Source: Prescottella defluvii | GTDB taxonomy: Bacteria; Actinomycetota; Actinomycetes; Mycobacteriales; Mycobacteriaceae | Direction of reading: 5' to 3' | Length of the DNA: 64,000 nt | Assembly (NCBI RefSeq): GCF_000738775.1 | Contig: NZ_JPOC01000022.1 | Coordinates: 1-64,000, forward strand | Shown here: positions 4,185 through 21,563 of the stretch, in pieces | Position numbering within the stretch: the stretch's first letter is position 1 | Layout of the letters: each line of letters begins with the position of its first letter | Translations under genes and position numbers: made by a program | Notes under the pieces: generated by a model | The model's input: the letters and a program-made list of their open reading frames with translations, nothing else | Told to the model about the DNA's origin: nothing | Databases searched by the model: none

Positions 4185-4408
4185 CGAACACCTCCACACC
4201 GGACGCGGAAATCTTCGACCGCGACCACCTGTTCGCGCATCACGCACTTCTCGGGGCGACTCCCTCCTGGGGGGTCGCCGACTACGGGCGCTGACTGCGT
4301 TGATCGGGGTCCACCGGCATTGCTGTCGACCCGTGAAGGTTGCCGAGTTTCACACCCGGCCGGGCCAGTTTACCCCGCCACGGCCACCCGAAGCGATGGC
4401 GAAAACGC

Positions 4409-4443
4409 ACACCGCCCGCGCCGGAAAACGGCGCGGGCGGTGT
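4409..4443 (-). terminator. Rho-independent terminator of the trp-lgt run
   Basis: Perfect 15-bp GC-rich stem (ACACCGCCCGCGCCG and its complement) with a 5-base loop. On the minus strand it is followed by GCGTTTTCGCC, a short T run. It lies 27 bases past the stop of the TM2 gene and separates that transcription unit from gltB. Confidence 0.85.
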
Positions 4444-4470
4444 GTCGGTGAGTGATGTCCTCGACGGGAA

Positions 4471-5226: not shown

Positions 5227-5231
5227 CGCTT

Positions 5232-6143
5232 CTATCCCTTCACGTCGGACGGATCGGCGCCGGCCACCCGGTGCGGCTTCAATTCCTCCGGATCCTCCCG
5301 ACCCTTCTTCGCGAGCACGAAGTACGCGATCGCACCGACGAACACGATCGCCGACGTGAACGAGTTGACGCGGATACCGAGGATCTCGGAGGCATGGTCC
5401 GAGCGCATCAGTTCGATCCAGAAGCGGCCCGCGCAGTAACCGGCCACGTAGAGCGCGAACAGGCGGCCGTGCCCGATCCGGAACCTGCGGTCCACCACCA
5501 CGAGCAGCACCACGATCAGCAGGTTCCACACCAGTTCGTACAGGAACGTGGGGTGAACGACCTGCAACACGACACCGTTGGACACGCCGTCGAGGGTGTC
5601 GACCCGGCCCGCGCCGTCGGTGCGCTCATAGATCTCGAGCCCCCACGGAACCGTCGTCTCGCGGCCGTAGAGTTCCTGGTTGAACCAGTTGCCGAGTCGG
5701 CCGATCGCCTGCGCCAGGATGACACCCGGCGCGACCGCATCGCCCAGCGCCGGCAACGGGATCCCCCGGCGCCGGCACCCGATCCAGGCGCCGACGGCAC
5801 CGAGCGCCACCGCGCCCCAGATGCCGAGGCCGCCCTGCCAGATCTTCAGCGCATCGACGGGGTTCCCGCCGGCTCCGAAGTACGTCGGCCAGTCCGTGAG
5901 GACGTGATACAGCCGTCCACCGATCAGACCGAACGGCACCGCCCAGACGGCGATGTCGAGAACCGTGCCCTTCTCGCCGCCACGCGCCACCCAGCGCCGG
6001 TCACCCCACACGATCGCCACGATGATGCCGGCAATGATGCAGAGCGCGTAGGCACGCAGGGCGAACGGACCGAGGTACCACACCCCTTGCGGTGGACTGG
6101 GGAGATACGCGAGAAGTTGCGTCGAAGTCGCCATCGAAGTCAC
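5232..6143 (-). CDS. lgt: Prolipoprotein diacylglyceryl transferase
   Basis: Moves the diacylglyceryl group of phosphatidylglycerol to the lipobox cysteine of prolipoproteins, the first step of lipoprotein maturation, in the cytoplasmic membrane. 303 residues with about seven hydrophobic segments. The Lgt signature is visible as GRLGNWFNQELYGRET, and HPTFLYELVWN matches the second conserved block. The GTG start overlaps the trpA stop (GTGA); an in-frame ATG three codons later is an alternative. The position directly after trpA matches the mycobacterial trp-lgt order. Confidence 0.96.
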   Translation of the reverse strand: MTSMATSTQLLAYLPSPPQGVWYLGPFALRAYALCIIAGIIVAIVWGDRRWVARGGEKGTVLDIAVWAVPFGLIGGRLYHVLTDWPTYFGAGGNPVDALKIWQGGLGIWGAVALGAVGAWIGCRRRGIPLPALGDAVAPGVILAQAIGRLGNWFNQELYGRETTVPWGLEIYERTDGAGRVDTLDGVSNGVVLQVVHPTFLYELVWNLLIVVLLVVVDRRFRIGHGRLFALYVAGYCAGRFWIELMRSDHASEILGIRVNSFTSAIVFVGAIAYFVLAKKGREDPEELKPHRVAGADPSDVKG

Positions 6144-6943
6144 TGGGCCACGGTAGCCGAGCGCACGCCCTCCGCGAGTTCGGTGGTGAGGGCGCGGACC
6201 GCGCCCAGGCCCTGCTCCACCGCGGAGACGATGGCGGATCCGACGATGACCGCGTCCGCGTACGCCGCGATCTCGGCGGCCTGGGCACCCGACCGGACGC
6301 CGAGTCCGACACCGACCGGGATGTCCGAGTGAGCGCGGATCCGAGACGTCAGTTCCGGCGCCATCGACGACACCGCATCACGCGCACCGGTCACGCCCAT
6401 CGTCGACGCAGCGTAGATGAACCCGCTGCTCGCCTCGAGGGTCATGGCCAGTCGCTCCTCGGTGGACGACGGCGCCACCAGGAAGATGCGGTCGAGGTGA
6501 TGCTCCTCGGACGCCGCCATCCATTCGCCGGCTTCCTCGGGGATCAGGTTCGGGGTGATCATGCCGAGGCCACCCGCGGAAGCCAGGTCGCGCGAGAACG
6601 CGTCGACGCCGTACTTGAGCACCGGGTTCCAGTACGTCATGACGACGGCTTTGCCACCGACCGACGCGATCTGCTCGACGACGGTGAACACGTCACGGAG
6701 TCGCACCCCGTTGCGCAGTGCGGTCTCGGCCGCGGTCTGGATCGTCGGTCCGTCCATCACCGGATCGGAGTACGCGACACCGACCTCGATGATGTCGCAG
6801 CCCGCATCGACCATCGTCTTGTAGACGTCGATCGACCCGGCAACGTCCGGGTAGCCGGCCGGCAGGTAGCCGACGAGTGCCGCCCGCTTCTCCTCGCGAC
6901 ACTTCGCGAACGTCGACGCCAGGCGTGAATCTCGTTGGCTCAC
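6140..6943 (-). CDS. trpA: Tryptophan synthase alpha subunit
   Basis: Cleaves indole-3-glycerol phosphate to indole and glyceraldehyde 3-phosphate and channels indole to TrpB. TIM barrel of 267 residues. The catalytic pair is E54 (IIEVGV) and D65 (PVMDGPT), equivalent to E49 and D60 of the enteric enzyme. The motif reads EVGVAYSDP where most homologues have a proline before the Tyr/Phe-Ser-Asp. The GTG start overlaps the trpB stop by four bases, so translational coupling is likely. Confidence 0.97.
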
Positions 6944-8247
6944 TTGACCGTACCTTCCTTGCTCGAATCAGCAGCGTCCTTGTCGAACAGGTCGAACCAC
7001 TGCGCGGCGGTGTCCATGTCCTTGTCGCCGCGGCCGGACAGGCTCACGACGATGATCGCGCCGTCGCCCAGTTCACGACCGAGCTCGAGGGCGCCGGCGA
7101 TCGCGTGCGCCGACTCGATCGCCGGGATGATGCCCTCGCGCCGCGACAGCAGCAGCAGCGCGTCCATCGCCTGGGAGTCGGTGATCGGCTCGTAGGTCGC
7201 CCGTCCGGTGTCCTTGAGGTAGGCGTGCTCGGGTCCGACACCCGGGTAGTCGAGGCCGGCCGAGATCGAGTGCGACTCGACGGTCTGGCCGTCCTCGTCC
7301 TGCAGCAGGTACGAGTACGCGCCCTGGAAGGCCCCCGGGGTGCCGCCGGCGAACGTGGCAGCATGCCGACCGGTCTCGACACCGTCACCGGCCGCCTCGT
7401 AGCCGACCAGCTTGACCGACGGATCGTCGATGAATGCGTGGAAGATTCCGATCGCGTTGGAGCCGCCGCCGACACACGCCACGACCGCGTCCGGCAGTCG
7501 GCCCGTCAGCGCCTGCACCTGTGCGCGCGCCTCGAGTCCGACGATGCGCTGGAAGTCGCGCACGATCATCGGGAACGGGTGCGGTCCGGCTGCGGTGCCG
7601 AAGCAGTAGTACGTCCGATCGGCGTTGGTGACCCAGTCGCGCAGTGCCTCGTTGATCGCGTCCTTCAGGGTGGCCGATCCGGTCTCGACGGACACGACCT
7701 CCGCGCCCAGCAGACGCATCCGGGCGACATTGAGCGCCTGCCGGCGGGTGTCGACCGCGCCCATGTAGACGACGCACTCGAGACCGAGCAGTGCACACGC
7801 GGTCGCCGTCGCCACACCGTGCTGACCGGCACCGGTCTCGGCGATGATCCGCGTCTTGCCCATGCGCTTGGCGAGCAGGACCTGCCCCAGCACGTTGTTG
7901 ATCTTGTGAGATCCGGTGTGGTTCAGGTCTTCCCGCTTGAGCAGGATGCGCGCGCCACCGGCGTGCTCGCGCAGCCGCGTCGCCTCGAACATCGGCGACG
8001 GACGACCGGTGTAGTCGCGCTGGAGTCGATCCAGCTCGTCGAGGAACGAGTCGTCCCCCCGGGCCTTGTCGTACTCGGCGGTGACCTCCTCGATCACCGC
8101 CATCAGCGCCTCGGGGACGTGACGCCCGCCGTACACGCCCCAGTGGCCGCCGGGATCGGGCTCATGGGTGGAGCGCTCGGTCAGACCGGCGCTGGCGGGG
8201 GGCAGATTCCCGCCCTTGGAGACGAAGGCCTCATTGCGTGAACTCAC
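6940..8247 (-). CDS. trpB: Tryptophan synthase beta subunit
   Basis: PLP enzyme that condenses indole with serine to tryptophan. The PLP lysine is in HTGSHKINN and the phosphate-binding loop is [10 protein letters not shown]. The start was set at GTG 8245-8247 ([12 protein letters not shown]...), giving 435 residues. An upstream in-frame start at 8343 would overlap trpC by 35 bases and add a non-conserved tail. The SD is weak at either start, so the exact N-terminus is uncertain. Confidence 0.95.
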
Positions 8248-8308
8248 GCCCCCAGTCTGCCCCAACCCCGACGAGAACGAATGGTCGGGTCCGCCGCCGG
8301 CCGTCGAC

Positions 8309-9118
8309 TCAGCGAGCCGGCTTGGGGCACGACGGATGCGCACCCGCCGTGACCAGATCGGAAACGGCGGTCCGCGGGTCGCCGCTGGTCACCAGTCCCT
8401 CGCCGACGAGCACCGCGTCCGCACCGGCACCCGCGTAGGCCAACAGGTCGGCGGTGCCGCGAACGCCGGACTCGGCGATCTTCACGACGCTGGACGGCAG
8501 GCCCGGAGCGATCCGCCCGAACGTGTCCATGTCGACCTCGAGGGTCTTGAGATTGCGGGCGTTCACGCCGATGACGCTGGCGCCGGCCTCGAGAGCACGG
8601 TCCGCCTCGGCCTCGGTGTGAACCTCGACCAGCGCGGTCATGCCGAGCGATTCGGTGCGCTCGAGCAGTGACGTGAGCACGGCCTGCTCGAGGGCCGCGA
8701 CGATCAGCAGGATGACGTCCGCGCCGTGCGCGCGTGCCTCGTGGATCTGGTACGGGCCGACGATGAAATCCTTGCGCAGGATCGGGATGTTCACCGCCCG
8801 GCGAACGGCGTCGAGGTCCGCGAGCGAACCGTGGAAGCGGCGTTCCTCGGTGAGGACGCTGATCATCCGTGCGCCACCGGCTTCGTACGCAGCCGCGAGC
8901 ACAGCGGGATCCGGGATGTCTGCGAGTGCACCCTTCGACGGGCTCGCGCGCTTGACCTCCGCGATGACGCCGATACCCGGGGCGCGCAGCGCCGCGGCCG
9001 CGTCCAGCGCGGGGGGCGCTGCGGCAGCGGCGGCCTTGACGGCGGCCAGGTCGAGAACGGCTTCGCGGGCGGCGACATCGGCGCGTACCCCGTCGAGAAT
9101 CGAGTCGAGAACGGTCAT
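8309..9118 (-). CDS. trpC: Indole-3-glycerol phosphate synthase
   Basis: Closes the ring of CdRP to indole-3-glycerol phosphate. TIM barrel of 269 residues from ATG 9116-9118 ([11 protein letters not shown]); a start 24 bases earlier is possible. The active-site block [13 protein letters not shown] is present, with [11 protein letters not shown] and the phosphate-binding GVNARNLKT. It lies 61 bases upstream of trpB. trpD, trpG and trpF are not in the window; TrpF activity is expected from PriA at 53.3-54.0 kb. Confidence 0.96.
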
Positions 9119-9194
9119 CGTGGCCCGAGTCCTTTCCGGCATGTCCGATGTGTGAGGTACCTCATCGGATCTTGACTCAGCCTAGAGGTAGGGG

Positions 9195-9929
9195 TTATTC
9201 GGTCTCGCGGCGGGTACCCGACCCGCCGGTGTCCTTGGTCACATCCGTCGCGGGAGGGGTTGACTCCTCGGCACGGGGAGCCCCCTCGTCGTCCGAGACG
9301 GTCGGGTCCTCACCGGCGTCGAGGGCATCCCACAGCATGCGCTGCGTCGGAGGCTCGTCCTTCGCGCCGGTGTCCGCACGCTTGGAGGCAGCGTCCCGTC
9401 GAGCGGCCGGGCTGTCGTACTTCGACGAGAGTCCGCCCGTCGCAGCCGGTTTCCGGATGAGCACGAAGGCCGCGGCCAGCGCAACCACCGAACCCAGCAA
9501 CACCAGCACCGCCGGCAGGACGGAGACCTCGGTCGCGGTCACCTGCGTGGCGACTCGCTCGAATCCTGCGATGTCCGCGGCCTTCTCGTCCGACGCCCCA
9601 CTCACCAGCATGCCGATCGCGGGAATCGCGGCGACGACGGCGACGATCGCGACCAGCAGACCCAGAAGTCGCACGAGCCACCCGCGTACCGCGAACGCGG
9701 CCGCGATCGCCGCGACCAACGCGAGCGCCAGCGGTGTCGTCGCCGCGGCCCAGGTGCCGCCGTCGAGGGCCGTCACGCGGTCCTCGCCCAGCCCGTCGGA
9801 CGACGTCACCGTCACCCACGTCATCCGCGACGAGCCCCACAGGCACAGCGCAGCCACCGCGAGCAGCAACGCGGCCACCCCGGTCGCGCGCCGACCGGCC
9901 GCCCGTCGTCCGGTCTCGTTCTCACTCAC
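9195..9929 (-). CDS. Trp-operon-associated membrane protein (TIGR02234 type)
   Basis: 244 residues with four hydrophobic helices in the first 160 (one near the N-terminus, then SSRMTWVTV, two central helices and one around residue 140) and a charged, Ser/Pro-rich cytoplasmic tail. The family occurs between trpE and trpC across actinobacteria (Rv1610 position), with no established role. Its start overlaps the end of trpE by eight bases, so it is co-translated with it. Confidence 0.88.
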
Positions 9930-11523
9930 CGTTGTTCACCTCCGAACGGTCCCCGAAGGACCGCAGCGTCTGCGCCGCGGCGATCGCGCTCAGGACCGCC
10001 ATCGCCTTGTTCCGTGCCTCAGTGTCCTCGTAGACGGGGTCCGAGTCGGCCACGACACCGGCGCCCGCCTGGACGTACGCCGTGCCGTCCTTGATCAACG
10101 CGGTGCGGATCGCGATCGCGGTGTCCGCGTCGCCCGCGAAGTCCAGGTATCCGACGATGCCGCCGTAGATGCCCCGGCGGGTCGGCTCGAGTTCGTCGAT
10201 CAGCTCCATCGCGCGGACCTTCGGCGCACCCGACAGCGTTCCGGCGGGGAAGCAGGCCGTCACCGCGTTGAGCGCGTGCTTGCCCTCCGCCAGGCGTCCG
10301 GTCACGGTCGAGACCAGGTGCATCACGTGGCTGTACCGCTCGATGTGCCGGTAGTCGTGCACCTTGACGGTACCCGGCTCGCACACCCGGCCCAGGTCGT
10401 TGCGACCGAGATCCACGAGCATCAGGTGCTCGGAATTTTCCTTCTCGTCGGCGAGGAGATCCTTCTCGAGCAGGATGTCGTCCTCCTCGGTGGCACCACG
10501 CCACCGGGTTCCGGCGATCGGATGCGTCGTCGCGGTCCCGTCCTTCACCGTGACGAGCGCCTCCGGACTGGAACCGACGATCGAGAACGCCGTCTCCCCG
10601 TCTGCGCCGGGGACCTGCACGAGATACATGTACGGACTCGGGTTCGATGCGCGCAGCATGCGGTACACATCGATCGGCTCAGCCGCGCAATCCATCTCGA
10701 ATCGCTGCGAGAGCACCACCTGGAACGCCTCACCGGCCTCGATCTCACCGATCAGCCGTCGGACATCGGTCCCGAAGCTCTCGGTGGTGCGCTGGCGCCG
10801 GTAGTCGGGTTGCGGGCGGGCGAACGTCGAGACCGTCGAGTGGGCGGGTGCGGCGAGCGCCGCGGTCATCCTGTCCAGGCGGGCGACGGCGTCGTCGTAC
10901 GCGGCGTCGACACGCTCGTCGGAGCCGTCCCAGTTGACGGCATTGGCGATGAGCGTGATGGCGCCCTCGTGGTGATCGACCGCGGCCAGGTCGGTGGCGA
11001 GGAGCATCACCATCTCGGGGATCTGCAGGTCGTCGACGGCATGTTCAGGTAGGCGTTCGAGGCGTCGGACGGCGTCGTATCCGAGGAACCCGACCATGCC
11101 GCCGGTCAGCGGCGGGAGGTCCGGCAGGCGCTCGCTGCGCAGCAACTCGAGGGTGCGCCCCAACGCCTCCAGGGGATCACCGCCGGACGGCGCGCCCACC
11201 GGGACGTTGCCGAACCACGCGGCCTCCCCGTCCTGCACGGTCAGCGCTGCGGGACTGCCCGCGCCGATGAACGACCAACGCGACCACGACCGGCCGTTCT
11301 CCGCCGACTCGAGCAGGAAGGTGCCCGGACGGCTGCCGGCCAGCTTGGTGTACGCCGACAGTGGAGTCTCGGCATCCGCCAACACCTTTCGGATGACGGG
11401 CACCACGCGATGCTCCGCCGCGAGAGCCCGGAACTGCTCCCGCGTGGTGGTCGAATCGTGCCGGGGACCCTCGCCCGGAACTGCCGAGGTAGCTGCTGGG
11501 ATGGTGGTGGACTCGCCGCGCAT
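9922..11523 (-). CDS. trpE: Anthranilate synthase component I
   Basis: Converts chorismate to anthranilate, using ammonia supplied by TrpG, which is not encoded here. 533 residues. The feedback Trp-binding element is seen as FLLESAENG near the N-terminus. The chorismate-binding half contains [21 protein letters not shown] and [18 protein letters not shown]. The ATG start is at 11521-11523. No Trp-rich leader peptide is visible between it and the upstream gene, so attenuation is not apparent. It is the first gene of the trp run and marks the left edge of the island. Confidence 0.97.
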
Positions 11524-11599
11524 GCACCCATCATCCCAGGCGGCACCGGGGCGCTGCGCGCCCGTGCGCCTTTTCGGTAGCGGCCACCGCCTGAAGTGC

Positions 11600-11620
11600 G
11601 CACCGGCGCGGCGCCGGCGC
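11600..11620 (-). terminator. GC-rich hairpin after the dioxygenase gene
   Basis: Two 10-base arms (GCGCCGGCGC and GCGCCGGTGC on the minus strand, with one G-U pair) and a minimal loop, starting two bases past the dioxygenase stop. It lies between the minus-strand dioxygenase and trpE. There is no clear T run. Confidence 0.45.
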
Positions 11621-11621
11621 G

Positions 11622-12398
11622 TCAGGCCACCTGGATCGATCGTTTCGCCAGACCCATCCAGAATCCGTCGATCACCTGCCGCGGGGACTGCTCCGGGTCA
11701 CTCGAGGCGCCCAGCGTGACGAACAGCGGCGCGAAGTGCTCGATCGTCGGATGCGCGTACGGCATGCCGGGCGCCTGCGCACGGAAGTCGAGCAGGGCGT
11801 CGACGTCGCCGGCGGCCAACCGCTCCCCCGCCCACGCGTCGAACTCGGCCGACCAACCCGGGGCAACCGCATCGGGCGACGGATCGCGCAGGAACGGCAG
11901 CCCGTGCGTCGCGAAGCCCGACCCGATGATCAGCACGCCCTCCTCGCGCAGGGGCCGCAGCCGCCGCCCGAGGTCGAGCAGACGCTGCGGGTCGAGCGTC
12001 GGCATCGAGATCTGCAGGACCGGGATGTCGGCGTCCGGATACATGACCGTCAGCGGCACGTACGCGCCGTGATCGAGGCCGCGATCCGGCTGGTGGTGGA
12101 CGGGTTCACTGTCCGGCATCAGCGCCGCGACCCGACGAGCCAGTTCCGGCGCACCGGGAGACCGGTAGGTCACGTCGTAGAACCGTCGAGGGAATCCCCC
12201 GAAGTCGTAGACGAGCGGCGTCCCGGTCGCGGTGGCGCCGATCGTGAGCGGCGCTGACTCCCAGTGCGCGGAGACGACGAGGATCGCCGTCGGACGCGGC
12301 AGGTCGGACGACCACTGTGTGAGTTCGCGGACCCACCGTTCGCTGTCGACCAGCGGGGGTGCGCCGTGGCTGAGGAAGATCGCGGGGATGTCGGTCAC
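11622..12398 (-). CDS. DODA-type class III extradiol dioxygenase
   Basis: 258-residue metal-dependent ring-cleaving dioxygenase of the 4,5-DOPA dioxygenase (YgiD/LigB-like) family. Expected metal ligands are visible in FLSHGAPP near the N-terminus, VSAHWES, the LDHGAYVP block and YAHPTIEH near the C-terminus. The natural substrate cannot be told from the sequence; a catechol-type aromatic is usual. It is transcribed away from the marR gene across a perfect 14-bp palindrome, so substrate-relieved MarR repression is likely. Confidence 0.92.
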
Positions 12399-12410
12399 AG
12401 GAACTCCTTT

Positions 12411-12424
12411 GTTGAAGCTTCAAC
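12411..12424. promoter_or_regulatory. MarR-type operator palindrome
   Basis: Perfect palindrome GTTGAAGCTTCAAC, 12 bases upstream of the dioxygenase start and about 115 bases upstream of marR. Its position in the divergent region and its MarR-like form (TTGAA-N2-TTCAA) suggest it is the binding site of the adjacent MarR protein. This is inference from position and symmetry. Confidence 0.75.
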
Positions 12425-12540
12425 CTAACATGTCCCTCAACGCTCCCTCCGTCCCGCTATTCCCCGGTCAGCGGGCCGCCGCGGACATTTGGCACGCTGG
12501 TACCCGAACACCGACTTTCAGCGATCGGAGAAACGAGCCG

Positions 12541-13035
12541 ATGGGCGCGCAGGACAACACCGACACCAAGTGGCTCACCGCCGCCCAGCAGGACGCCTGG
12601 CGCACCCTCGTCGCCCTCGTGACGCGACTGCCCGCAGCGCTGGACACCCAACTGCAGCGGGACTCCGACCTGGCCCACTTCGAGTACTTCGTCCTCGCCG
12701 TACTCTCGGAGGCCCCGGACCGGCGACTGCGGCTGTCGGAACTGGCGCAGCAGGCCAACGCGTCGCTCTCCCGCCTGTCGCACGTCGTCACCCGGCTGGA
12801 GAAGCGGGGCTGGGCCCGTCGCGAGACGGTCGCCGGGACACGGGGCGCGTTCGCGGTCCTCACCGACGCGGGCCTGGCCACGGTCGTCGAGGCGGCACCC
12901 GGGCACGTCGCCACTGTGCAGGCGCTGGTCTTCGAGGGGCTCGACGACGATCAGGTCGCCCAACTGTCGTCGCTGGGCCGCGCCCTCGTCGATCAACTCG
13001 ACAAGGGCATCGCGGCAGGCACCGGCAAGGCCTAG
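12541..13035 (+). CDS. MarR-family transcriptional regulator
   Basis: 164 residues with a winged helix-turn-helix. The recognition part is LRLSELAQQANASLSRLSHVVTRLEKRGWARRE and the wing AGTRGAFAVLTDAG. The start ATG 12541 has GGAG 12 bases upstream and gives the usual length for the family. It is divergent from the dioxygenase gene, which it probably represses through the 12411-12424 palindrome. An AraC gene follows after 8 bases. Confidence 0.93.
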   Translation: MGAQDNTDTKWLTAAQQDAWRTLVALVTRLPAALDTQLQRDSDLAHFEYFVLAVLSEAPDRRLRLSELAQQANASLSRLSHVVTRLEKRGWARRETVAGTRGAFAVLTDAGLATVVEAAPGHVATVQALVFEGLDDDQVAQLSSLGRALVDQLDKGIAAGTGKA

Positions 13036-13043
13036 AGCGAACC

Positions 13044-13841
13044 GTGGCTGCCACGTCGGCGGAACAGCCGACACCCGCACGATTCCCGTGGGAGGGCGTG
13101 CTCACGCTGACCCCGGGGGCGGTTCTCTACGTCGGCGCCGGCGGCGACGCGGAGATCCACGCGCACCACGCCGTGCAGGTCATCGTCTCCCTGGACGAGC
13201 CGTTCGTTCTGGAGCTCGAGGACGGCCTCCATCCCGCGGCGGCCGCGGTCGTCCCGAGCGGGCTGCCGCACGGATTGCGCTGCAACTCCCGCAGCCTGCT
13301 GTTGATGCTGGTCGAGCCGTTCGGTCCGCGGGGCCGTGGACTCAGCGTCGCCGGACAGCGCAGTCGTGGCCAGGAGGTCGAGGACGCGCTCGCGCGCATC
13401 GCCACCGAGCACTCCCACGATTCGAGCACCGTGGCCACGATCGACCGCCTGGTTCGGACGATCACCCCGACAGTCCAGCAACCGCCCACCCACTTGTCCG
13501 CGCCGGTGCGCTCGGCGCTTCGGTACATCGAGGGGAACTCCGGTGCACGGCCCACCCTCGGCCACGCGGCCGCCGAGGCGCACCTGTCGCCCTCCCGTTT
13601 GACACACCTCTTCACCCGGGAGGTGGGTATCCCGTTTCGTCGCTACGCACTTTGGGTGCGGCTACGGACCGTGGCCGAGCGAGTGGCGGAGGGCGACAAC
13701 CTGACTCGGGCGGCCGTCGCCGCCGGCTTCAGCGACTCTGCGCACCTCAGCCGGGTGTTCAAGAGCAATTTCGGCCTGAGTCCGTCCGCCCTGTTGGGGA
13801 TGCAGTTCGATCGCGACGCCTGGCCCGGCGGCACCACCTGA
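13044..13841 (+). CDS. AraC-family transcriptional regulator
   Basis: 265 residues from GTG 13044. The N-terminal half is a cupin-like sensor (IHAHHAVQVIVSLDEPF, PSGLPHGLRC); the last 100 residues carry two HTH units (LGHAAAEAHLSPSRLTHLFTR and TRAAVAAGFSDSAHLSRVFK). It follows marR by 8 bases and is probably co-transcribed with it. Its target is not evident; the transglutaminase-like gene 77 bases downstream is the nearest candidate. Confidence 0.92.
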   Translation: MAATSAEQPTPARFPWEGVLTLTPGAVLYVGAGGDAEIHAHHAVQVIVSLDEPFVLELEDGLHPAAAAVVPSGLPHGLRCNSRSLLLMLVEPFGPRGRGLSVAGQRSRGQEVEDALARIATEHSHDSSTVATIDRLVRTITPTVQQPPTHLSAPVRSALRYIEGNSGARPTLGHAAAEAHLSPSRLTHLFTREVGIPFRRYALWVRLRTVAERVAEGDNLTRAAVAAGFSDSAHLSRVFKSNFGLSPSALLGMQFDRDAWPGGTT

Positions 13842-13918
13842 CCCGACGGGGCACCGTCCGGGGAAGGTCAGCCGCAACGTTCAAGCGTTCGAGATCCCGC
13901 TCCCCCTAGGTTCGACTC

Positions 13919-14638
13919 ATGGACGTTCACCGGAAATCCACCGCGATCCTCGACTACGACCACCCCTCGATCCAGTCATTGGTGTCGATCCACGGATGGC
14001 TCGATCTGCACTATGGAGAGCGCATCGGTGCGGTCTACGACTTCGTCCGGGACGAGATCGGCTTCGGGTACAACGCGACCGACGCGCTACCCGCGTCCCA
14101 GGTGCTCTCGGACGGGTACGGCCAGTGCAACACCAAGACCACGCTCCTGATGGCGCTGTTGAGAGCGGTCGAGGTGCCCTGCCGATTCCACGGGGCGACG
14201 ATCGACAAACGCCTGCAGAAGGGCGTCGTCGACGGGATCCTCTACCGACTGGCCCCGAACGACATCCTGCACAGTTGGGCCGAGGTCCGGTTCGACGACC
14301 GCTGGGTCGACCTGGAGGGCGTCATCCTCGACGCCGACTATCTGGCCGGACTGCGCAACACGGTCGCGTCGAATGGTCCGTTCCTCGGCTACGGTGCCGG
14401 CACCGAGGACATCGCCGACCCGCCGGTCGCCTGGACCGGCACCGACACCGCGATCCAGAAGACGGGAGTGAACCGCGACCTCGGGGTCCACGACGATCCG
14501 GACACGTTCTACCGACAGCACGGAACCAACCTCAGCGGAGTGCGGGATCTCCTGTATCAGAAGGTGATCCGGCACCTGATGAACCGGAAGGTGGCCTCGA
14601 TCCGCGGGCGCGCGACCAGCACAGCGGCGAGCCGCTAG
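13919..14638 (+). CDS. Transglutaminase-like cysteine peptidase-fold protein
   Basis: 239 residues with a bacterial transglutaminase core. The Cys is in GYGQCNTKTTLL, the His in ILHSWAEVRF and the Asp in RWVDLEGV, in the correct order and spacing. No signal peptide or membrane segment is visible, so it is probably cytosolic. Enzymes of this family may be proteases or amidases rather than cross-linkers; the substrate is unknown. Its stop codon lies inside the first of two hairpin repeats. Confidence 0.88.
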   Translation: MDVHRKSTAILDYDHPSIQSLVSIHGWLDLHYGERIGAVYDFVRDEIGFGYNATDALPASQVLSDGYGQCNTKTTLLMALLRAVEVPCRFHGATIDKRLQKGVVDGILYRLAPNDILHSWAEVRFDDRWVDLEGVILDADYLAGLRNTVASNGPFLGYGAGTEDIADPPVAWTGTDTAIQKTGVNRDLGVHDDPDTFYRQHGTNLSGVRDLLYQKVIRHLMNRKVASIRGRATSTAASR

Positions 14639-14660
14639 ATCAACTCAGCGGCGAGCCGCT
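14623..14660. repeat. Tandem hairpin repeat between converging genes
   Basis: The palindrome-like unit AGCGGCGAGCCGCT occurs at 14623-14636 and again at 14647-14660, 24 bases apart, with similar flanks (CTAGATCAAC, CTAATTCAAC). A third variant, AGCGGCTCGCCGCC, begins at 14671 inside the tautomerase-like frame. Each unit can form a 6-bp stem. They sit where the plus-strand transglutaminase and minus-strand tautomerase converge and may act as a bidirectional terminator. Confidence 0.6.
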
Positions 14661-14663
14661 AAT

Positions 14664-14876
14664 TCAACCCAGCGGCTCGCCGCCGACGCCCCAGTTCTCC
14701 CGCGGCACCTCGGTGATTGTCACCCACACCGACGAGGCGTTCTTCCCGGTCGCCTCGGCGTAGGCCTTGGTGACGGCGGCGATGGTCTCGCGCTTCTGTT
14801 CGGCGGTCAGTCCGGGGGTCTGGCTGATCTGAATGATTGTGTCGGTACTTTCGGATTGACCATTGACTAGATACAT
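14664..14876 (-). pseudogene. Tautomerase-like gene lacking the catalytic Pro1
   Basis: 70-codon frame whose last 57 residues align closely with the intact tautomerase next door (IIQISQTPGLTAEQKRE..., SSVWVTITEVPRENWGVGG). The 4-oxalocrotonate tautomerase family needs an N-terminal Met-Pro so that proline becomes residue 1. Here the equivalent position reads ...STDT-IIQIS with an unrelated 13-residue N-terminal extension and no proline. The body is otherwise intact, so it is either a recently inactivated copy or one diverged to another role. Confidence 0.6.
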
Positions 14877-14928
14877 ACGCCGTACGGCCCGCCGCCACTA
14901 TCGTGATGCGCTGAGGAGTTCCACGACC

Positions 14929-15108
14929 TCAGCTCAAGGGCACTCCCCCAACCCCCCAGTTCTCGCCGAGAACCTCGGTGATCGTCACCCAGACCTTGTC
15001 CGGGTTCTTCCCCGCAGCCTCGGCATACGCCCTGGTGACCGCTTCGATCACCGCCCGCTTCTGTTCCCTCGTAAGCCCCGGTGTTTGAGTGATCTGAATC
15101 ATCGGCAT
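14929..15108 (-). CDS. 4-oxalocrotonate tautomerase family protein
   Basis: 59 residues, MPMIQITQTPGLTREQKR at the start, so Pro1 is exposed after Met removal. The body matches the family (AVTRAYAEAAGKNPDKVWVTITEV). Small hexameric keto-enol tautomerases of this kind act in aromatic degradation; a link to the dioxygenase 2.5 kb away is possible but not shown. Tandem with the Pro1-less copy, separated by 52 bases, which points to duplication. Confidence 0.8.
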   Translation of the reverse strand: MPMIQITQTPGLTREQKRAVIEAVTRAYAEAAGKNPDKVWVTITEVLGENWGVGGVPLS

Positions 15109-15129
15109 AGGAAGTACTGTGTCACAACC

Positions 15130-15510
15130 TCATTCGACCGCCTCGGACACCACTCGCGTTCGATTCCGTGACGCGATGTCCACGACTCCACTCAGGGCTT
15201 CGAGCTCGCGGTGCAAACGGTAGTTCTCGAGGGCCAGGCGCTGCACGCTGACAGCAGCGGCCGCCACGTCACCTCGCAGGACCGAGTTCTCTTTCCGAAG
15301 CCGATCACAGTCATGGCAAGGTCCGGTCGACCGAGTAGCACTCCCGCGAGCAACGGGTTCGATTTCGTTGATCGTTCGGATCTCGTCGACGACATCTGCG
15401 AAGTTGTGTTGGACAATCCAAAATGGCGCGCGATCGACAGGACGCTCAATCGCGTGCTTCCCTCGCCCCGGCTCGGGTCCCGCACCACTACCCGCACGTC
15501 ATCAATGTCA
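15130..15510 (-). pseudogene. Open frame without start; coiled-coil-like remnant
   Basis: Minus-strand frame open from a stop near 15511 to TGA at 15130-15132 with no ATG or GTG that would give a sensible product. Its C-terminal half looks protein-like: CDRLRKENSVLRGDV followed by SVQRLALENYRLHRELEAL, a heptad-type Leu/Glu/Arg pattern. Such helices occur in proteins carried with actinobacterial integrase modules, but I cannot assign it. Probably a remnant. Bases 15511-15753 upstream hold no gene that I can support. Confidence 0.3.
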
Positions 15511-15753
15511 GGAATCGAACCACGTGGCTTCACGATTTGCTCCGGACATTCTTATCGAGGAATTCTTCAATCTGCTCGACACGGCGAGCAAACGGCAGGG
15601 CTCGCGGACGTACTCCGGGACACTGCGATCCGCGAAGACCACCCGGGAGGCGCGCTCGGTGCGAACTGGAGAAGCATCGTGTCCGGTGTCACCGCGAAGT
15701 ACTTGGCCGACAGTTAGCGGAACCGAGGGCCCAGGTCTTCAAGGGTGGGCGTG

Positions 15754-15783
15754 AACGGCAGTGCCGGTGCAGGCACTGCCGTT
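15754..15783 (-). terminator. Hairpin downstream of the HEPN-STAND gene
   Basis: Perfect 12-bp stem (AACGGCAGTGCC and complement) with a 6-base loop, 10 bases past the stop of the minus-strand STAND gene. No strong T run follows on the minus strand. Confidence 0.65.
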
Positions 15784-15793
15784 CTTGCTCTGT

Positions 15794-18229
15794 CTATGCC
15801 AACAGCGAGCATGCCTTTACGAGTTCACCGTGGAGCCGGTGTCCTGATCCAACTGCACTAGCGGCAGTACCGATTCGGTCGCTGAGGATAGACGACCTGC
15901 GCGGAGAAATGCTCCGGCTCCACTTGACCACAAAATCTACTACCTGCCGTATGGCTCGCTCTTGCGAGTTGGAGGTTGGCTCCTCAAGCTTCTGCCATGA
16001 TTTGAACAGTACGATCGCACATTCTGCAATGGATTCGGCAGTCTTGCTGTGGGGACCACCTTCGTTCATGGCTACTACTCCGCTGTGTATTCCGACTGAT
16101 GCCTTATCGAATGATTCTTTGAATCGTCTGGCAGCGAACTCGCGGTCGGCCCAGCGAGCCCAACTGTCGACGAGCACGGCCAGAACGATTCGGCGGTGGC
16201 GCCCGCTTGTTTCTTCCAAGTGGTTTTCGATAGTCTCCTGGCCGTCTTTGAAGTTCCCAGTCCAGATAAGAACTCGACCGAGCAGGAATGAGGTGTCGCT
16301 ACATGGAAAAGTCTGGTACGCGGATTTGGCGTGGGGTAGTGCCAATCCTGCATCGTGGAGATCCTTCGCCATGACGTTTGCTAGTGAATAGTTTGTTGTC
16401 GCGGTAACGATCGGGTCGGTAGCGTAGGAGAGTGCCATTTTGTATTCGGACACCGCGTTCTCGTACCGCCGCTCGAGCGTGTTTACAAAACCGGAAATTC
16501 GATAAACTTCAGAAAACTCGGGATTAAAGCTTCTCGCGCGTTCGATCTGTTCATGGGCCCTATCGTACTGGCCTGACTTGGCCATTGTTACTGCGCGCGA
16601 CAATAGAAATGTTGCGGGATGGTCCAATTCGTCCGAAGGAAACACGCGCTCCGGATTGATCCGCTCCTGCTTCTGTTGAGCGTTATGCTCGACCGAGGCC
16701 CGGAATTGCCGTTCTCGCTGAAGGACAGCACCAATGAAGGCTCCAGAATGATCGGGCCGCGCTACAAACATTCGTGCCGTCGGTGTGAGTGCAAGTTTGC
16801 CCGCCACCGCACCTGCAGATTCGGATTCTACTGAGACTAGTGAACCTTGTGTGAGTTTTTGGGTCGCCGACCGCAGATCGTCGATTGACATATCGGTAAG
16901 AATCGCGAACTCATCAAACCCGATTGACCTGTCCAGTGCCCGAAGGATGGTTAGAACCGCCCTTGCATTCTGGGGGAGGCCGTCGTATACGTTCTTAACG
17001 CAGAAGTCCAGCAGTTCCCGTTGGTCCCTTAGGGTGTCGAGTGGAACCTTTCCCGCCTCACTCGATAGGACGTACCAGCGAATCGCTAGCGGGCTACATC
17101 TGAGCTGTTCAACGACCTTGTCTAGGGTCTTCTCGGACAGTCCTGCGAGCTTTCGTTGATTCCTTGCCTTGGAGAACTTTCGAAGTAGCAGCTTTGCCTC
17201 TTGTGCGCTCAATGGAGGTAGAGGGAATCTCCGCTCGAGCTGGCCGATTCCTAACCGGCTCGTAAACAGGTAGTTGACAGACGGTGGAAGAACATCGTAC
17301 ATGTGCACGATTTCATCCCCCTGTGCAGACTCCAAGTTGTCAATAATGATCAGACATTCGATTCCCTCAAGTGCGTGCGATAGGTCGGTCAGCCTGCCCG
17401 TGAAATCGTTGTCGAGCCCTCGTCCGAGCGCAACAATCGTCTGGTCGATTCCTTGGATTGCGTTTCTAAGTTCCTCGACCCCATAAGCCGTAAGCCTCTC
17501 GGTCTTGAGGGAGACCCAGAGGATTGCTTCGTAAGGGTTTGCGTCGGAGTCAAGTATGCGATACGCGACGTCGAGCGCGAGGGTTGTCTTGCCGATTCCG
17601 CCCTCCCCTGTAACAGTAATGACGTTCTGGCGCCGCCTTATTAGCGCCTGGAATAGTTTCTCCGACTCATCTTTTCGGCCGATGAAGGAAGTTTCGTCGT
17701 AGTCAACCTCGGGGAGATTGTGGAGGGTCTTCTCGAAAGGCACGGCGGACCGCTCAAAGTATGGCTCCCAGGTGGGGTCGCGTCGAAGTCGGCCGATGAC
17801 AACGACGGTTTCCTCCCATGCTCGAGAATGAAACCCTGACAGTATAGAAACTGCAACTATTGGGTCGTCTGAGTTCAGTGGTCTACCGTGCATCACGCGG
17901 TGTCGAATTGGAGAAAGCTTGGCGACTGACGGGGCGTTGTCGCGAATTTCTTGGACCACCTCAGTTGGAAGACAATCTTTATTTCTCAGCATGATATCGA
18001 AACATGTTCCGAGGTCGAGGTAGTGGATGATGCTGACGTGATCGCCATTCTCATCAAGCTTCTGTCGGCGAGACGCTTCGGTGAACTCGGCTTCAGTCAG
18101 GATGTCGCGTTCGGTCAGATGGTCGAGAAGATTCGATTCGATAGTTCGACGCATGTCTTGTTCGAAACTGTCGATTAGCACATACAAGCGTGCCCTGCTC
18201 ATCCGTACGTCTTCGATCGCCAGGCTCAA
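15794..18229 (-). CDS. HEPN-STAND NTPase-TPR protein, probable defence protein
   Basis: 811 residues if started at TTG 18227-18229, which has GGGGAGG five bases upstream; ATG 18200-18202 would remove 9 residues. Three parts are visible. The N-terminal ~160 residues are helical and contain RHRVMH, the R-x4-H motif of HEPN RNases (R109, H114). A STAND/NB-ARC NTPase follows: SFIGRKDE linker, Walker A GEGGIGKTT near 208-216, Walker B CLIIIDNLE near 292-300, and a winged-helix region up to about 500. The last ~260 residues look like TPR repeats (SGQYDRAHEQIERARSFNP, ERRYENAVSEYKMAL). Base composition is visibly lower in GC than the flanks, suggesting transfer. STAND NTPases with nuclease-like effectors are known antiphage sensors; that role here is inference. 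Confidence 0.82.
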   Translation of the reverse strand: MSLAIEDVRMSRARLYVLIDSFEQDMRRTIESNLLDHLTERDILTEAEFTEASRRQKLDENGDHVSIIHYLDLGTCFDIMLRNKDCLPTEVVQEIRDNAPSVAKLSPIRHRVMHGRPLNSDDPIVAVSILSGFHSRAWEETVVVIGRLRRDPTWEPYFERSAVPFEKTLHNLPEVDYDETSFIGRKDESEKLFQALIRRRQNVITVTGEGGIGKTTLALDVAYRILDSDANPYEAILWVSLKTERLTAYGVEELRNAIQGIDQTIVALGRGLDNDFTGRLTDLSHALEGIECLIIIDNLESAQGDEIVHMYDVLPPSVNYLFTSRLGIGQLERRFPLPPLSAQEAKLLLRKFSKARNQRKLAGLSEKTLDKVVEQLRCSPLAIRWYVLSSEAGKVPLDTLRDQRELLDFCVKNVYDGLPQNARAVLTILRALDRSIGFDEFAILTDMSIDDLRSATQKLTQGSLVSVESESAGAVAGKLALTPTARMFVARPDHSGAFIGAVLQRERQFRASVEHNAQQKQERINPERVFPSDELDHPATFLLSRAVTMAKSGQYDRAHEQIERARSFNPEFSEVYRISGFVNTLERRYENAVSEYKMALSYATDPIVTATTNYSLANVMAKDLHDAGLALPHAKSAYQTFPCSDTSFLLGRVLIWTGNFKDGQETIENHLEETSGRHRRIVLAVLVDSWARWADREFAARRFKESFDKASVGIHSGVVAMNEGGPHSKTAESIAECAIVLFKSWQKLEEPTSNSQERAIRQVVDFVVKWSRSISPRRSSILSDRIGTAASAVGSGHRLHGELVKACSLLA

Positions 18230-18509
18230 GTTGACCTCCCCATCGGTTTTGCAGCAGGTTACCTCGCGCGCAGCTATCCAGGGCAAGCGCGATATGCAAA
18301 TCTGGTCGAGCCGTACCCGCCTCGACCCGAGCGACACCGAAGTCAAGAAGGTCCTCTACGCCCGGCTTGTGTGCTGTAGGCCGGACAACTCTCCACCGCA
18401 GCAGAGTCTTGTTCATGGCCTACCGTCACATCTCCCAGGGGCATCGATCCCGGACCTGCCGGCCCTCTTGCCCGATGTGCGACTGCACTGGACCACAAGA
18501 CCGTGACGG

Positions 18510-18739
18510 GCCGCCGCCCTCCTCAACTTCCGAGTGGACTTCCTCCTACTGCTATACAGTCCACCGCAGCGTCCTCGAATTCGACGGCAAACAGCTCTAC
18601 ACCGACGACCGCGGCCACGCGTCACCCGTAAGATACGCAGACAACATCCGTGCCGACCGCGACATGAAGCTGTGCGGATACGCACGTATTTCGCTTCGGC
18701 GACCACGAACTCTGCACCAAACAACACGCACTCCCCTAG
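18510..18739 (+). pseudogene. DUF559-like (PD-(D/E)xK) nuclease remnant, frameshifted
   Basis: Pieces of one protein are spread over different frames: LNFRVDFLL near 18510-18550, then VLEFDGKQLYTDDRGHASPV up to KLCGYA (18571-18690), then VFRFGDHELCTKQHALP ending at TAG 18737-18739. EFDGK is the catalytic E-x-K half of the nuclease motif and FRFGDHEL is the typical distal strand. At least two frameshifts separate the pieces, and no N-terminal part is left. Bases 18230-18509 between this and the STAND gene hold nothing that I recognise. Confidence 0.55.
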
Positions 18740-18784
18740 CCTTCCGTGACGCCCCTACAGGGGCGAAGAGCGGGACATTTGTGG

Positions 18785-18872
18785 TCAGGGGTGGACGGGT
18801 TCGGTGGTCAGTTCGGCGATCGGCGCCTCGACCTTCGCTTCAATCTCGTCGCGGATCGGTCGGACAGCCGCG
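18785..18872 (-). pseudogene. arsC: C-terminal tail of an arsenate reductase gene
   Basis: The last 28 or so residues before TGA 18785-18787 read VAAVRPIRDEIEAKVEAPIAEL plus a short tail, matching the C-terminal helix of low-molecular-weight-phosphatase-type arsenate reductases. Upstream the frame runs straight into antisense of the arsA fragment, so only the 3' end survives, joined head-to-head with arsA sequence. Confidence 0.5.
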
Positions 18873-18875
18873 ACG

Positions 18876-19475
18876 CCCTCGCTGGCCGCCCTCGACGACC
18901 AGGGCCACGCCAACCTCGCCGAAGACCTGAAATCCCCGTGCACCGAGGGAGTGTCCGTCTTCCATGCCTTCTCCCGGGTCATCCACGAATCCCGCCGACG
19001 CTTCGTCGTCGTCGACACCGCCCCCACCGGCCACACCCTGCTCCTACTCGATGCCCCCGGCTCCTACCACCGCGAGATCGCCCGACAGATGGGCGAGAAC
19101 ACGTACTACACCACCCGGCTCATGCGGCTGCAGAACCCCGACGAGACCAAGATCCTCATCGTCACCCTCGCCGAAACCACACCCCGCCTCGAAGCCGAAA
19201 CTCTGCATGCCGACCTCGAGCGTGCCGGCATTCACCCCTGGGTATGGGTCGTCAACAACTCAATCGCCGCAGCGAAACCAACATCACCGCTGCTTCAACG
19301 CCGCGCGCACACAGAGTTCGCCGAAATCGATGCCACCACACGCGCGCACACCCACTGTCGCGCGCACACCCGCTGCGCCATCGCCCCGATGCTTCAAACG
19401 GAGCCCATCGGTATAGCTGCGCTCAAGGCCCTAGCCCACTCTGAGCGACCTGCCATCGAGAACATCTCATATTGA
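18876..19475 (+). pseudogene. arsA: ArsA arsenite-efflux ATPase, C-terminal fragment
   Basis: About 200 residues of the second half of ArsA: LAEDLKSPCTEGVSVFHAFS, the ArsA signature DTAPTGHTLLLLD, YHREIARQM, and the C-terminal WVVNNSIAAAKPTSPLL. The Walker A loop (GKGGVGKT) and the whole first half are missing. Near the end a short internal duplication (RAHTHCRAHTRC) disrupts the usual alignment. The frame can be opened by an in-frame start at 18804, but the first ~24 residues would be antisense of the arsC tail. Non-functional as an ATPase. Confidence 0.7.
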
Positions 19476-19514
19476 ATATGCCGAACGGTCGGTTCAGCTA
19501 GCTATCATCGAGGG

Positions 19515-19967
19515 ATGATTACGATCGCACCGACAGCGAGGCAGCCTGGGGTGCCCCTGTCTCTGTCGGTGCACGTGGATTTCGGGCCTGCGGCGCAACA
19601 GATGCAACGCGCCTTCGAACCCGCGATGGAAGTCATGCGGCGGAGCGCCGCCATCCTCGACATGCTCGACCGTACACGCCAGGTGCTCGATATCTTCTGG
19701 GAGCGCGCCCGCCGCTCCAGCGCGTGGCTGTCGAGTCTGGCGCCGGCGAAAGTCAGCAATCTCGACGAATCGCTGGGGCAGTACCGTCGCCGGTCCATCG
19801 ATGCCGACGGCCACGTCCACGCCTTCCTCCGATCGCTGATAGTGCGCCACCGCGGGGGTGGAGACCCACCCGGACACCTCGTCTCGACCCAGCCGCAGGT
19901 CACACGCGGCCCTGACTACCGCAGGTCTTTTGCCGAAATAGACCCTGCGGTGGTTCTGCACGCCTGA
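19515..19967 (+). CDS. Hypothetical protein
   Basis: 150 residues from ATG 19515. The first ~60 are protein-like and helical (FGPAAQQMQRAFEPAMEVMRRSAAILDMLDR); the rest is Arg/Ser-rich with no recognised motif, signal or membrane segment. It lies in the degraded zone between the two arsA fragments and may be a mobile-element passenger. I do not recognise the family. Confidence 0.4.
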   Translation: MITIAPTARQPGVPLSLSVHVDFGPAAQQMQRAFEPAMEVMRRSAAILDMLDRTRQVLDIFWERARRSSAWLSSLAPAKVSNLDESLGQYRRRSIDADGHVHAFLRSLIVRHRGGGDPPGHLVSTQPQVTRGPDYRRSFAEIDPAVVLHA

Positions 19968-20013
19968 GCATCAGGCAGCAGTCCCCCGCACTAGTTGCTG
20001 AGGACTAATCCCG

Positions 20014-20226
20014 GTGCATACCTATCTCTTCTCTGCTTTCGACTCCGTCGCTCCCGGCTCCTTCATGTGCGCGATGGTCGCGCTGGTGCTTCTCTTCTGG
20101 GCTGTCTGGGTTTCCTGTGCGCTGTTCGTTGCGCTGAAGTCGGACGGAGACCGTGCCGATCGCGCTCGCGACCTGGTCCGCATCTTCACGGACCTGCTAC
20201 GCCGCGGCGGGAGTGATCAGCGGTGA
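20014..20226 (+). CDS. Small single-span membrane protein
   Basis: 70 residues from GTG 20014. One strong membrane helix (SFMCAMVALVLLFWAVWVSC) is followed by a basic tail (KSDGDRADRARDLVRIF). The stop overlaps the start of the next frame (GTGA at 20223), which supports both being real and co-translated. Function unknown. Confidence 0.45.
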   Translation: MHTYLFSAFDSVAPGSFMCAMVALVLLFWAVWVSCALFVALKSDGDRADRARDLVRIFTDLLRRGGSDQR

Positions 20227-20687
20227 CGGTACTGTCCGGCCGACGAGGCCGGCCACCGCTGTGCTCTCCTGAGGTACTTGATCGGACGATCGCGATGCGT
20301 CTGGCTGGTCTGTCCTACCGGAGAATCTGCGAGATCTTCAACGCCGAGGGCCTCCCAACCCCGGCAGGCCGGCCTGTCTGGCATCCGTCGTACGTGTATC
20401 GGCTGACCGGGACACGACACTGGATCGAGCGCCTGGCCGAGGCCAAGAGTTCAGCCGAGGGACTGGTCGGACTTGCAGCAGAAGGCAATTCGTCCCCACC
20501 CCACGCACACACAGAGGTCACGGAGAACCGGCCCACGCGCCGTGAAGAATCGACTGGTCATCAGCGCCCCCAATCAACCAACGGAGTCGAGGCGTGCCAC
20601 CGCTGGACGCCTACTCAAGCTCATCGATCAGCTCCTGGACGCTGTTGCAGCGGCGCGCTGCGGCGGAAGTGGCGGAACTCGCCCTGA
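20223..20687 (+). CDS. Recombinase-like HTH protein, 3' end probably scrambled
   Basis: 154 codons. Residues 6-65 (RRGRPPLCSPEVLDRTIAMR, then LSYRRICEIFNAEGLPTPAG) resemble the DNA-binding part of the Recombinase domain of serine recombinases: GLS-x3-I-x3-(L/F)N-x2-G(I/L)-TP-x-G. No resolvase catalytic domain is present. After about residue 85 the sequence looks unconstrained, and its last part overlaps the second arsA fragment in another frame, so the original 3' end was probably lost at a junction. Confidence 0.45.
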   Translation: MTVLSGRRGRPPLCSPEVLDRTIAMRLAGLSYRRICEIFNAEGLPTPAGRPVWHPSYVYRLTGTRHWIERLAEAKSSAEGLVGLAAEGNSSPPHAHTEVTENRPTRREESTGHQRPQSTNGVEACHRWTPTQAHRSAPGRCCSGALRRKWRNSP

Positions 20688-20797
20688 TTGCCACCGAGCA
20701 CGCGGAAAAGTTCGCTGTTGTTCCGGCACTAACTGAAGAACCTGTGGGAGTCGTGGCGCTTGGCGCACTGAGCGTCTCAAGCACAGCCATCAAGTGA
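20645..20797 (+). pseudogene. Second ArsA C-terminal fragment
   Basis: About 50 codons: LLQRRAAAEVAEL, ATEHAEKFAVVPALTEEPVG, VALGAL, then TGA at 20795-20797. This is the extreme C-terminus of ArsA, equivalent to the end of the 18876-19475 fragment but with a different sequence, so it comes from a separate copy rather than a local duplication. It has no plausible start of its own. Confidence 0.55.
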
Positions 20798-20834
20798 GTT
20801 TGGAGAGTCCCACGCGGGCACTCGGCGCAGCGAG

Positions 20835-21214
20835 CTATGCCACGAATGTCCGGGCAGCGGCCAATATGAGCGACCAGTCCTCCAGGGTGCGGCCTTGCTG
20901 GAGCATCTGGGCGGGCGACCGGTCGTCGAGGTCACAGTTCATCCCTTGGAACCAGCCCTGCGCGACCGCTTTGTTGTTGCGGTCGGCAATCAGTCGCGAT
21001 ACGCGAACCGAAGTCGCGCGATGAGCTCGTGGCTGTCAATCTCGACGGAGCCCTCCGCCCACTGCCGAATAATCCGTGTATCGCTCACTCCACCGAGGTA
21101 GGCGACCAACTTCGCTCCGAGTACTTCGCGGAGTGCGCTGGTTAACTCAGCGGGGCCCATAAACGCTGCTTCGGAATACGCGTCAAGATCCGGCCGTGGG
21201 TGCGACGCCGCCAT
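20835..21214 (-). pseudogene. Xre/antitoxin-like regulator gene with one frameshift
   Basis: From ATG 21212-21214 (GGAGG eight bases upstream) the first ~73 codons read MAASHPRPDLDAY...LGAKLVAYLGGVSDTRII...ELIARLRFAYR, then hit a stop at 20990. The family continues in the next frame from about 21000: VSRLIADRNNKAVAQGWFQG, MNCDLDDRSPAQML, ending at TAG 20835-20837. The joined product of about 125 residues matches a common actinobacterial small protein with an AYLGGVSD(T)R-x2-RQWA core and a C-terminal GWFQGMN block. One single-base change would restore the gene, so either recent inactivation or a sequencing error is possible. Confidence 0.65.
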
Positions 21215-21563
21215 GCAATCCACCTCCAATCCCACGATAGGTCCGAGCGTGTATACGCATCGTGCAACTTGGATCCAGCATTCTCAACTTTTTGCACAGC
21301 GCAGAGATCTAGTTCCGAAGACGGCGATCAGAGAGGCATCAATGCCCGTCAATATGGTTCGCCGGACCAACACTCTGGGCCACTACGCCAAGGCAGCAGA
21401 CTCGACCCATGAGCCATCGTTGCCGCCGACACCGGCAGTGGTCACTGACCGGTCATACACAAGCACCAGTGGCATGCCGCCATTGTCGCCTCGGTCCATG
21501 TGCGGCCGATCTTCGGGGCCGGGCGTGATTCATCTGCCGACCGGGCCGGGTTCGCCCAGGTCG
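21215..21563. other. Gene-free stretch
   Basis: 349 bases between the frameshifted regulator and the lipoprotein gene. Only poorly supported frames occur on either strand; I see no promoter, repeat or RNA structure worth naming. It marks the right end of the degraded zone. Confidence 0.5.

Follow-up and report, generated by a model that had tools for sequence, protein, structure and literature searches.

A candidate NLR-like antiphage gene of the Swt1-type HEPN-STAND-TPR kind, without a cold-shock end, in a variable region of Prescottella defluvii

Does a single low-GC gene of Prescottella defluvii encode a phage defence system, and would such a system act on RNA? The gene lies in a stretch of 64,000 nucleotides (contig NZ_JPOC01000022.1, here called the window), where the minus-strand open reading frame 15794-18229 is intact and has a product of 811 residues. 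The order of domains is an N-terminal HEPN-like domain, then an NB-ARC/STAND NTPase, then TPR repeats, and the motifs that the initial annotation had picked out are all present (RHRVMH as R109-H114, GEGGIGKTT as residues 208-216, and LIIIDN as residues 293-298). We put at about 0.7 the probability that this is a one-gene abortive-infection system whose NLR-like protein is of the Swt1-type HEPN-STAND-TPR kind. As a likely bacterial relative of the immune receptors of plants and animals, the protein probably senses an infecting phage and responds by cutting RNA, shutting the cell down; we infer both the role in phage defence and the RNase activity. The features of the gene are as follows.

15794..18229, minus strand: HEPN-STAND-TPR gene, 811 aa (TTG start; alternative ATG at 18202)
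18235..18240, minus strand: Shine-Dalgarno-like GGGAGG, read from the sequence, five bases upstream of the TTG at 18229
17765..18229, minus strand: N-terminal HEPN-like domain, residues 1-155 (structure model, VIA rows, hhalign to HEPN_Swt1)
17888..17905, minus strand: R109-x4-H114 motif (RHRVMH), predicted RNase site (conservation in aligned and profile-found sequences)
17075..17686, minus strand: NB-ARC/STAND NTPase core, residues 182-385 (Pfam NB-ARC and AAA_16)
17582..17608, minus strand: Walker A GEGGIGKTT, residues 208-216 (sequence and alignment)
17336..17353, minus strand: Walker B LIIIDN, residues 293-298 (sequence and alignment)
16211..16609, minus strand: TPR region, residues 541-673, presumed sensor (Pfam TPR models)
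15797..16159, minus strand: divergent C-terminal tail, residues 691-811, without a cold-shock domain (alignment and Pfam)

The in-frame ATG at 18202, which is 27 bases past the TTG and would give 802 aa, is also a possible start, and it agrees with the aligned N-termini of the Rhizobium homologs.

The GC content of the gene is 0.539, versus 0.691 for positions 1-14836 and 0.687 for positions 21554-64000, which bears out the earlier claim that it falls below its neighbors. At third codon positions the value is 0.59 (0.7-0.9 in most other called genes within the window). For comparison with the window, eight stretches were taken from seven species of the genus. All seven are collinear with the left flank up to about window 14836, and in three of them the next homologous stretch is nearby, after 1.2 kb (G007, at window 21654), 1.6 kb (G006, at window 22100), or 4.2 kb (G003, at window 21554). 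Because these three species carry other, shorter sequence there, the gene is placed in a variable region of ~6.7 kb:

14837..21553, no strand assigned: variable region holding the gene (comparison with other species of the genus)

A direct repeat of 174 nt (window 14664-14837 and 14929-15102, 72% identical) lies where this region begins on the left, and in several relatives both copies match one single place. A fragment of an ArsA-type ATPase adjoins the gene (window 18804-19475; PF02374, E 6.3e-17, best stretch from profile position 91 of 305), and a Recombinase-domain fragment is found at window 20223-20687 (PF07508, E 2.9e-4). The description of this surrounding sequence as debris of mobile genes is thus apt for the Recombinase-domain fragment but not for the ArsA-type ATPase, which is itself no mobile gene.

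This is a rare accessory gene of patchy occurrence. At E 1e-10, no match turns up in 13 other genomes of the genus. Across 396 sampled genomes of the phylum (scored per genome on two candidates in the protein search and on up to eight with the N-terminal profile), only the window's own genome has a match (at E 1e-15 with the protein and at E 1e-4 with the N-terminal profile). The window gene is the sole full-length copy there, and four other matches are short and confined to the P-loop/NTPase (E about 1e-4). Within another genus of the same class, the N-terminal profile matches 6 of 295 genomes, with four long frames that have Walker A and HNLP and two short frames that lack them. Two frames of 301 and 268 aa (L143 and L144, from two genomes of one genus) carry RNAVAH and RNVPMH, respectively, with a different C-terminal part and no Walker A.

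A tblastn search found no match in phages and matches in 17 plasmid records, four of which cover at least 80% of the protein (one from Planococcus and three from Rhizobium, identity about 25%). Alignment A1, comprising the window protein and three of these four long plasmid homologs, yielded 50 homologous loci out of 101 pattern matches, from genome contigs that span nine phylum-level groups. The closest homologs are those of Nocardia concava (L009, 54%) and Microbacterium oxydans (L016, 52%). In a tree from which two short rows (L020 and L057) were omitted, these two and the window protein form a clade with 100/100 support, within an actinobacterial group of 11 rows.

The reading of the N-terminal domain as HEPN draws on several lines of evidence. 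Pfam HEPN_Swt1 reaches only E 0.11 over residues 21-123 of the window protein, and it matches 13 of 49 family members at E 0.01 or better (best 7.4e-4). When alignment A2 was compared by hhalign with 20 of the 27 HEPN_Swt1 matches, the result was P 1.8e-4 and a probability of 49%, with the R and H in register. The predicted structure of residues 1-178 (pLDDT 90.2) is entirely helical, and it places the motif at the end of helix 105-114, ahead of a loop; the same placement, at a helix end before a loop, is described in the HEPN paper (PMC3710099). The initial annotation had proposed a fold search with this part of the protein, and the outcome was divided: HEPN entries are among the top rows of the VIA structural neighbors, with modest Z, and Foldseek returned no significant match. 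Neither a search of PDB sequences with the HEPN profile (at E 1) nor a search of the window's genome with the HEPN_Swt1 profile gave any match. The modeled fold offers modest support for the HEPN assignment.

The conservation of the motif adds to this. R109 and H114 are kept in 54/54 aligned rows (the window protein, three plasmid proteins, and 50 locus proteins), a count that is biased because the retrieval pattern held either the R-x4-H motif or HNLP. The R and H are also kept in all 10 proteins that matched the HNLP pattern alone. A further six proteins, found with an N-terminal profile that was itself built from motif-bearing sequences, all keep R-N-x3-H (with VAH for VMH in four and PMH in one). 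Judged from the 54 of 54 compared sequences that have both residues, the conservation exceeds chance. The residue following the motif R is N in 47, H in six, and R in one of the 54 sequences; in motif-bearing HEPN domains it is mostly N, D, or H, according to the same paper (PMC3710099). An Ex3[KR] motif (E23, with R or K at 27) occurs in 43 of 52 rows. Such a motif is mentioned for HEPN, but the acidic residue is assigned to helix 2 in that account (PMC3710099), whereas E23 lies in the first helix of our model. Together, the conserved motif residues, the HEPN_Swt1 profile match with R and H in register, and the helical model, whose best structural neighbors include HEPN entries, strengthen the domain reading.

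The weakness of the fold match (modest Z with VIA, nothing significant with Foldseek) would also suit a STAND conflict protein whose effector is not directed at RNA, the HEPN-like domain being a binding module or having another target. For some HEPN domains in which the motif has been lost, a role as binding modules is proposed (PMC3710099). We consider this explanation unlikely, as an R and H kept in 54/54 aligned and 6/6 profile-found sequences would be unexpected for an inactive domain.

The STAND NTPase is supported by profile matches: Pfam NB-ARC exceeds its cut-off (E 3.3e-7, 30.3 bits, cut-off 23.5), AAA_16 is at its own cut-off (E 1.4e-7), the two spanning residues 182-384, and NB-ARC is found at E 0.01 in 47 of 49 members. 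The residues of its P-loop are conserved. Between residues 541 and 673 there are matches to TPR_19, TPR_2, and TPR_14 (E 5e-5 to 2e-3, each under its gathering cut-off), and TPR_2 is found in 33 of 49 members. Three other identities were rejected: NCBIfam FxSxx_TPR (37.5 bits versus a cut-off of 300, covering the NTPase alone), ClpA/ClpB (match confined to the surroundings of the P-loop), and PADLOC mad8 (E 4.5e-4, again covering the NTPase alone).

The window protein and its nearest homolog, L009, are 69% identical over the NTPase; the figure is 55% for the HEPN domain, 49% for the TPR region, and 29% for the tail, and the lower values of the TPR region and tail relative to the NTPase are the pattern expected of a variable C-terminal sensor. 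This sensor-like gradient also bears on the idea that the gene does not sense phage and is instead a module for addiction or island maintenance. The variable region around it, with its recombinase fragment, and the presence of homologs on plasmids would fit such a module, but no adjoining partner gene was recognised, and with the C-terminal divergence pointing to a sensor we regard this as very improbable.

The C-terminal end differs from that of many relatives. The Pfam listing of the window protein contains no cold-shock domain (CSD), and Pfam detects one at E 0.01 in 29 of 49 members (best 1.8e-19); in two CSD members viewed singly (L013 and L024) it sits at the C-terminus. Individual Pfam listings of L009 and L016 likewise have no CSD, and by eye in the alignment L028, L030, L031, L032, and L054 are also without such an end, which is present in the Streptomyces rows and in L010, the outgroup closest to the CSD-less clade. 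Given the tree position and the CSD-like end of this outgroup, loss of the CSD within the clade of the window protein, L009, and L016 is the simplest reading. The loss is not peculiar to the window gene, because both nearest relatives (822 and 811 aa) stop at about the same endpoint. Inspection by eye of the three reverse frames of 15191-16000 showed no frameshift that hides a CSD past the stop.

In many relatives the CSD probably helps in RNA binding; since this branch is without it, the domain cannot be essential to the branch's function. We tentatively raise the possibility, which we hold to be rather doubtful, that the family has two sensing modes, with CSD members detecting or presenting RNA and CSD-less lineages using the TPR region and tail alone. 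If this is true, the branch would serve as a natural experiment in which the sensing of phage RNA and that of phage protein can be told apart inside a single family of NLR-like RNases. If the protein works, the CSD-less branch also offers a simple way to test the purpose of the RNA-binding domain.

What surrounds the homologs elsewhere is relevant to a role in defence. The neighbor set comprised 170 genes within two places of homologs (ORFs of 90 aa or more, called by a simple script), of which the 150 longest were scanned; proteins >1500 aa were dropped, and L014, L015, L045, and L050 were excluded. PADLOC models near homologs include, among the matches listed, GajA, GajB, SduA, Avs2, LmuA, Dsr2, AriAB, AbiEii, and mad3 (which we take to represent Gabija, Shedu, Lamassu, PARIS, and so on), as well as type III, type IV, and other restriction-modification genes. 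At E 1e-10 there are 115 and 221 PADLOC families near homologs (two scans, with shared families counted twice) versus 183 in a control of 150 of 166 genes >5 kb away, which is not a clean control because these genes lie in the same islands as the homologs and one protein may match many models. These figures count families, 25 of which were listed per scan, and not proteins. On the Pfam side, the near genes include three integrases, four resolvases, Mrr, and GmrSD alongside housekeeping families, transporters, SmpB, and UvrA among them. As individual cases, the copy in Rhizobium BG4 has a type I restriction operon one gene away, and the R. etli copy adjoins transporter genes.

Homologs also occur in three viral contigs, from 30 pattern matches. 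One of these, full length (L091:5974-8544), lies between portal and major head genes, and a second (L089) has an integrase and a primase upstream (both by PHROGs); the third (L090) is downstream of what by eye appear to be tail, holin, and amidase genes. The defence models near homologs and the homologs in viral contigs lend weight to the proposal of an antiphage function.

Some neighbors and matches point elsewhere, toward a STAND protein that has nothing to do with phages and acts in regulation or the stress response. The gene adjacent to the Nocardia homolog encodes an AAA_16-LuxR regulator, and over residues 117-383 the window protein is 26% identical to a LuxR-type regulator from a plasmid of Rhodococcus opacus. 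We judge this quite improbable, because the Pfam listing of the window protein shows no DNA-binding domain, the HEPN-like domain is common to full-length relatives, and the gene occurs patchily, with homologs in viral contigs.

For the preferred reading, an abortive-infection protein, a sequence of events can be proposed. In the resting state, the NB-ARC switch would keep the protein inactive. Recognition of a phage product by the TPR region and variable tail would trigger nucleotide exchange and then oligomerisation, as in the STAND class. Oligomerisation would pair the HEPN domains, which by analogy with the HEPN superfamily may cleave RNA without metal through R109 and H114, and growth arrest would follow ahead of phage release. 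This scheme of sensor binding, nucleotide exchange, oligomerisation, and effector action is the most likely one, judging from the STAND class, from the P4 TIR-STAND-TPR protein (PMC9122126), and from Avs5 (PMC12931631).

How does the protein compare with what has been described? The Swt1-like row of Table 1 in Anantharaman et al. 2013 (PMC3710099) reads “STAND-ATPase, TPR, S1 (Npun_F6454, MED222_16016, Desac_1927), mostly active,” and the text of that paper on bacterial HEPN and STAND proteins mentions cold-shock-like OB-fold C-termini “in some cases.” The order of HEPN, STAND, and TPR is the same as in the window protein, with Rx4H “mostly active” there, and three features of the broad Swt1-like kind are found (an intact Rx4-6H motif, a STAND ATPase with Walker A and B, and TPR repeats). 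The C-terminal S1/cold-shock OB feature is absent, unlike in Npun_F6454, MED222_16016, and Desac_1927, compared here by their description in that table. Lacking a CSD, the window protein is filed under the broad kind and not under the S1/cold-shock sub-architecture. By its domain make-up, then, the gene is a member of a broad kind predicted from sequence in 2013, without the S1/cold-shock end. The earlier suggestion that the architecture may be undescribed in the genus can stand at most for the genus, given that the design appears in that table row (PMC3710099).

Among the openly licensed papers listed by our searches, none showed an experimental test of the HEPN-STAND-TPR family. The DefensePredictor paper reports four validated systems with HEPN domains, out of 31, and we could match none of these four to this family (PMC13092281). 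The PADLOC candidate system PDC-M34B is recognised in 25 of 49 members (best E 1.9e-10) and, weakly, over residues 12-122 of the window protein (E 6.4e-4); its model of 192 positions is too short for a STAND NTPase plus repeats.

Two of the closest known designs differ in their effectors. The TIR-STAND-TPR protein that P4 satellites use against phages (Rousset et al. 2022, PMC9122126) shares the single-protein effector-STAND-TPR plan, but its effector is TIR (SIR2 and nuclease variants are mentioned in the text on this plan, HEPN is not), whereas that of the window protein is HEPN-like. Avs5 (PMC12931631) likewise has an effector, a STAND NTPase, and C-terminal repeats with TPR; there the effector is Sir2 and the NTPase nSTAND3, in contrast to the window protein, where they are HEPN-like and NB-ARC-type. 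Protection against phages is reported for STAND proteins that carry TIR or Sir2 effectors (PMC9122126, PMC12931631), and if the window protein is functional, RNA cleavage would join the tested outputs of bacterial NLR-like proteins.
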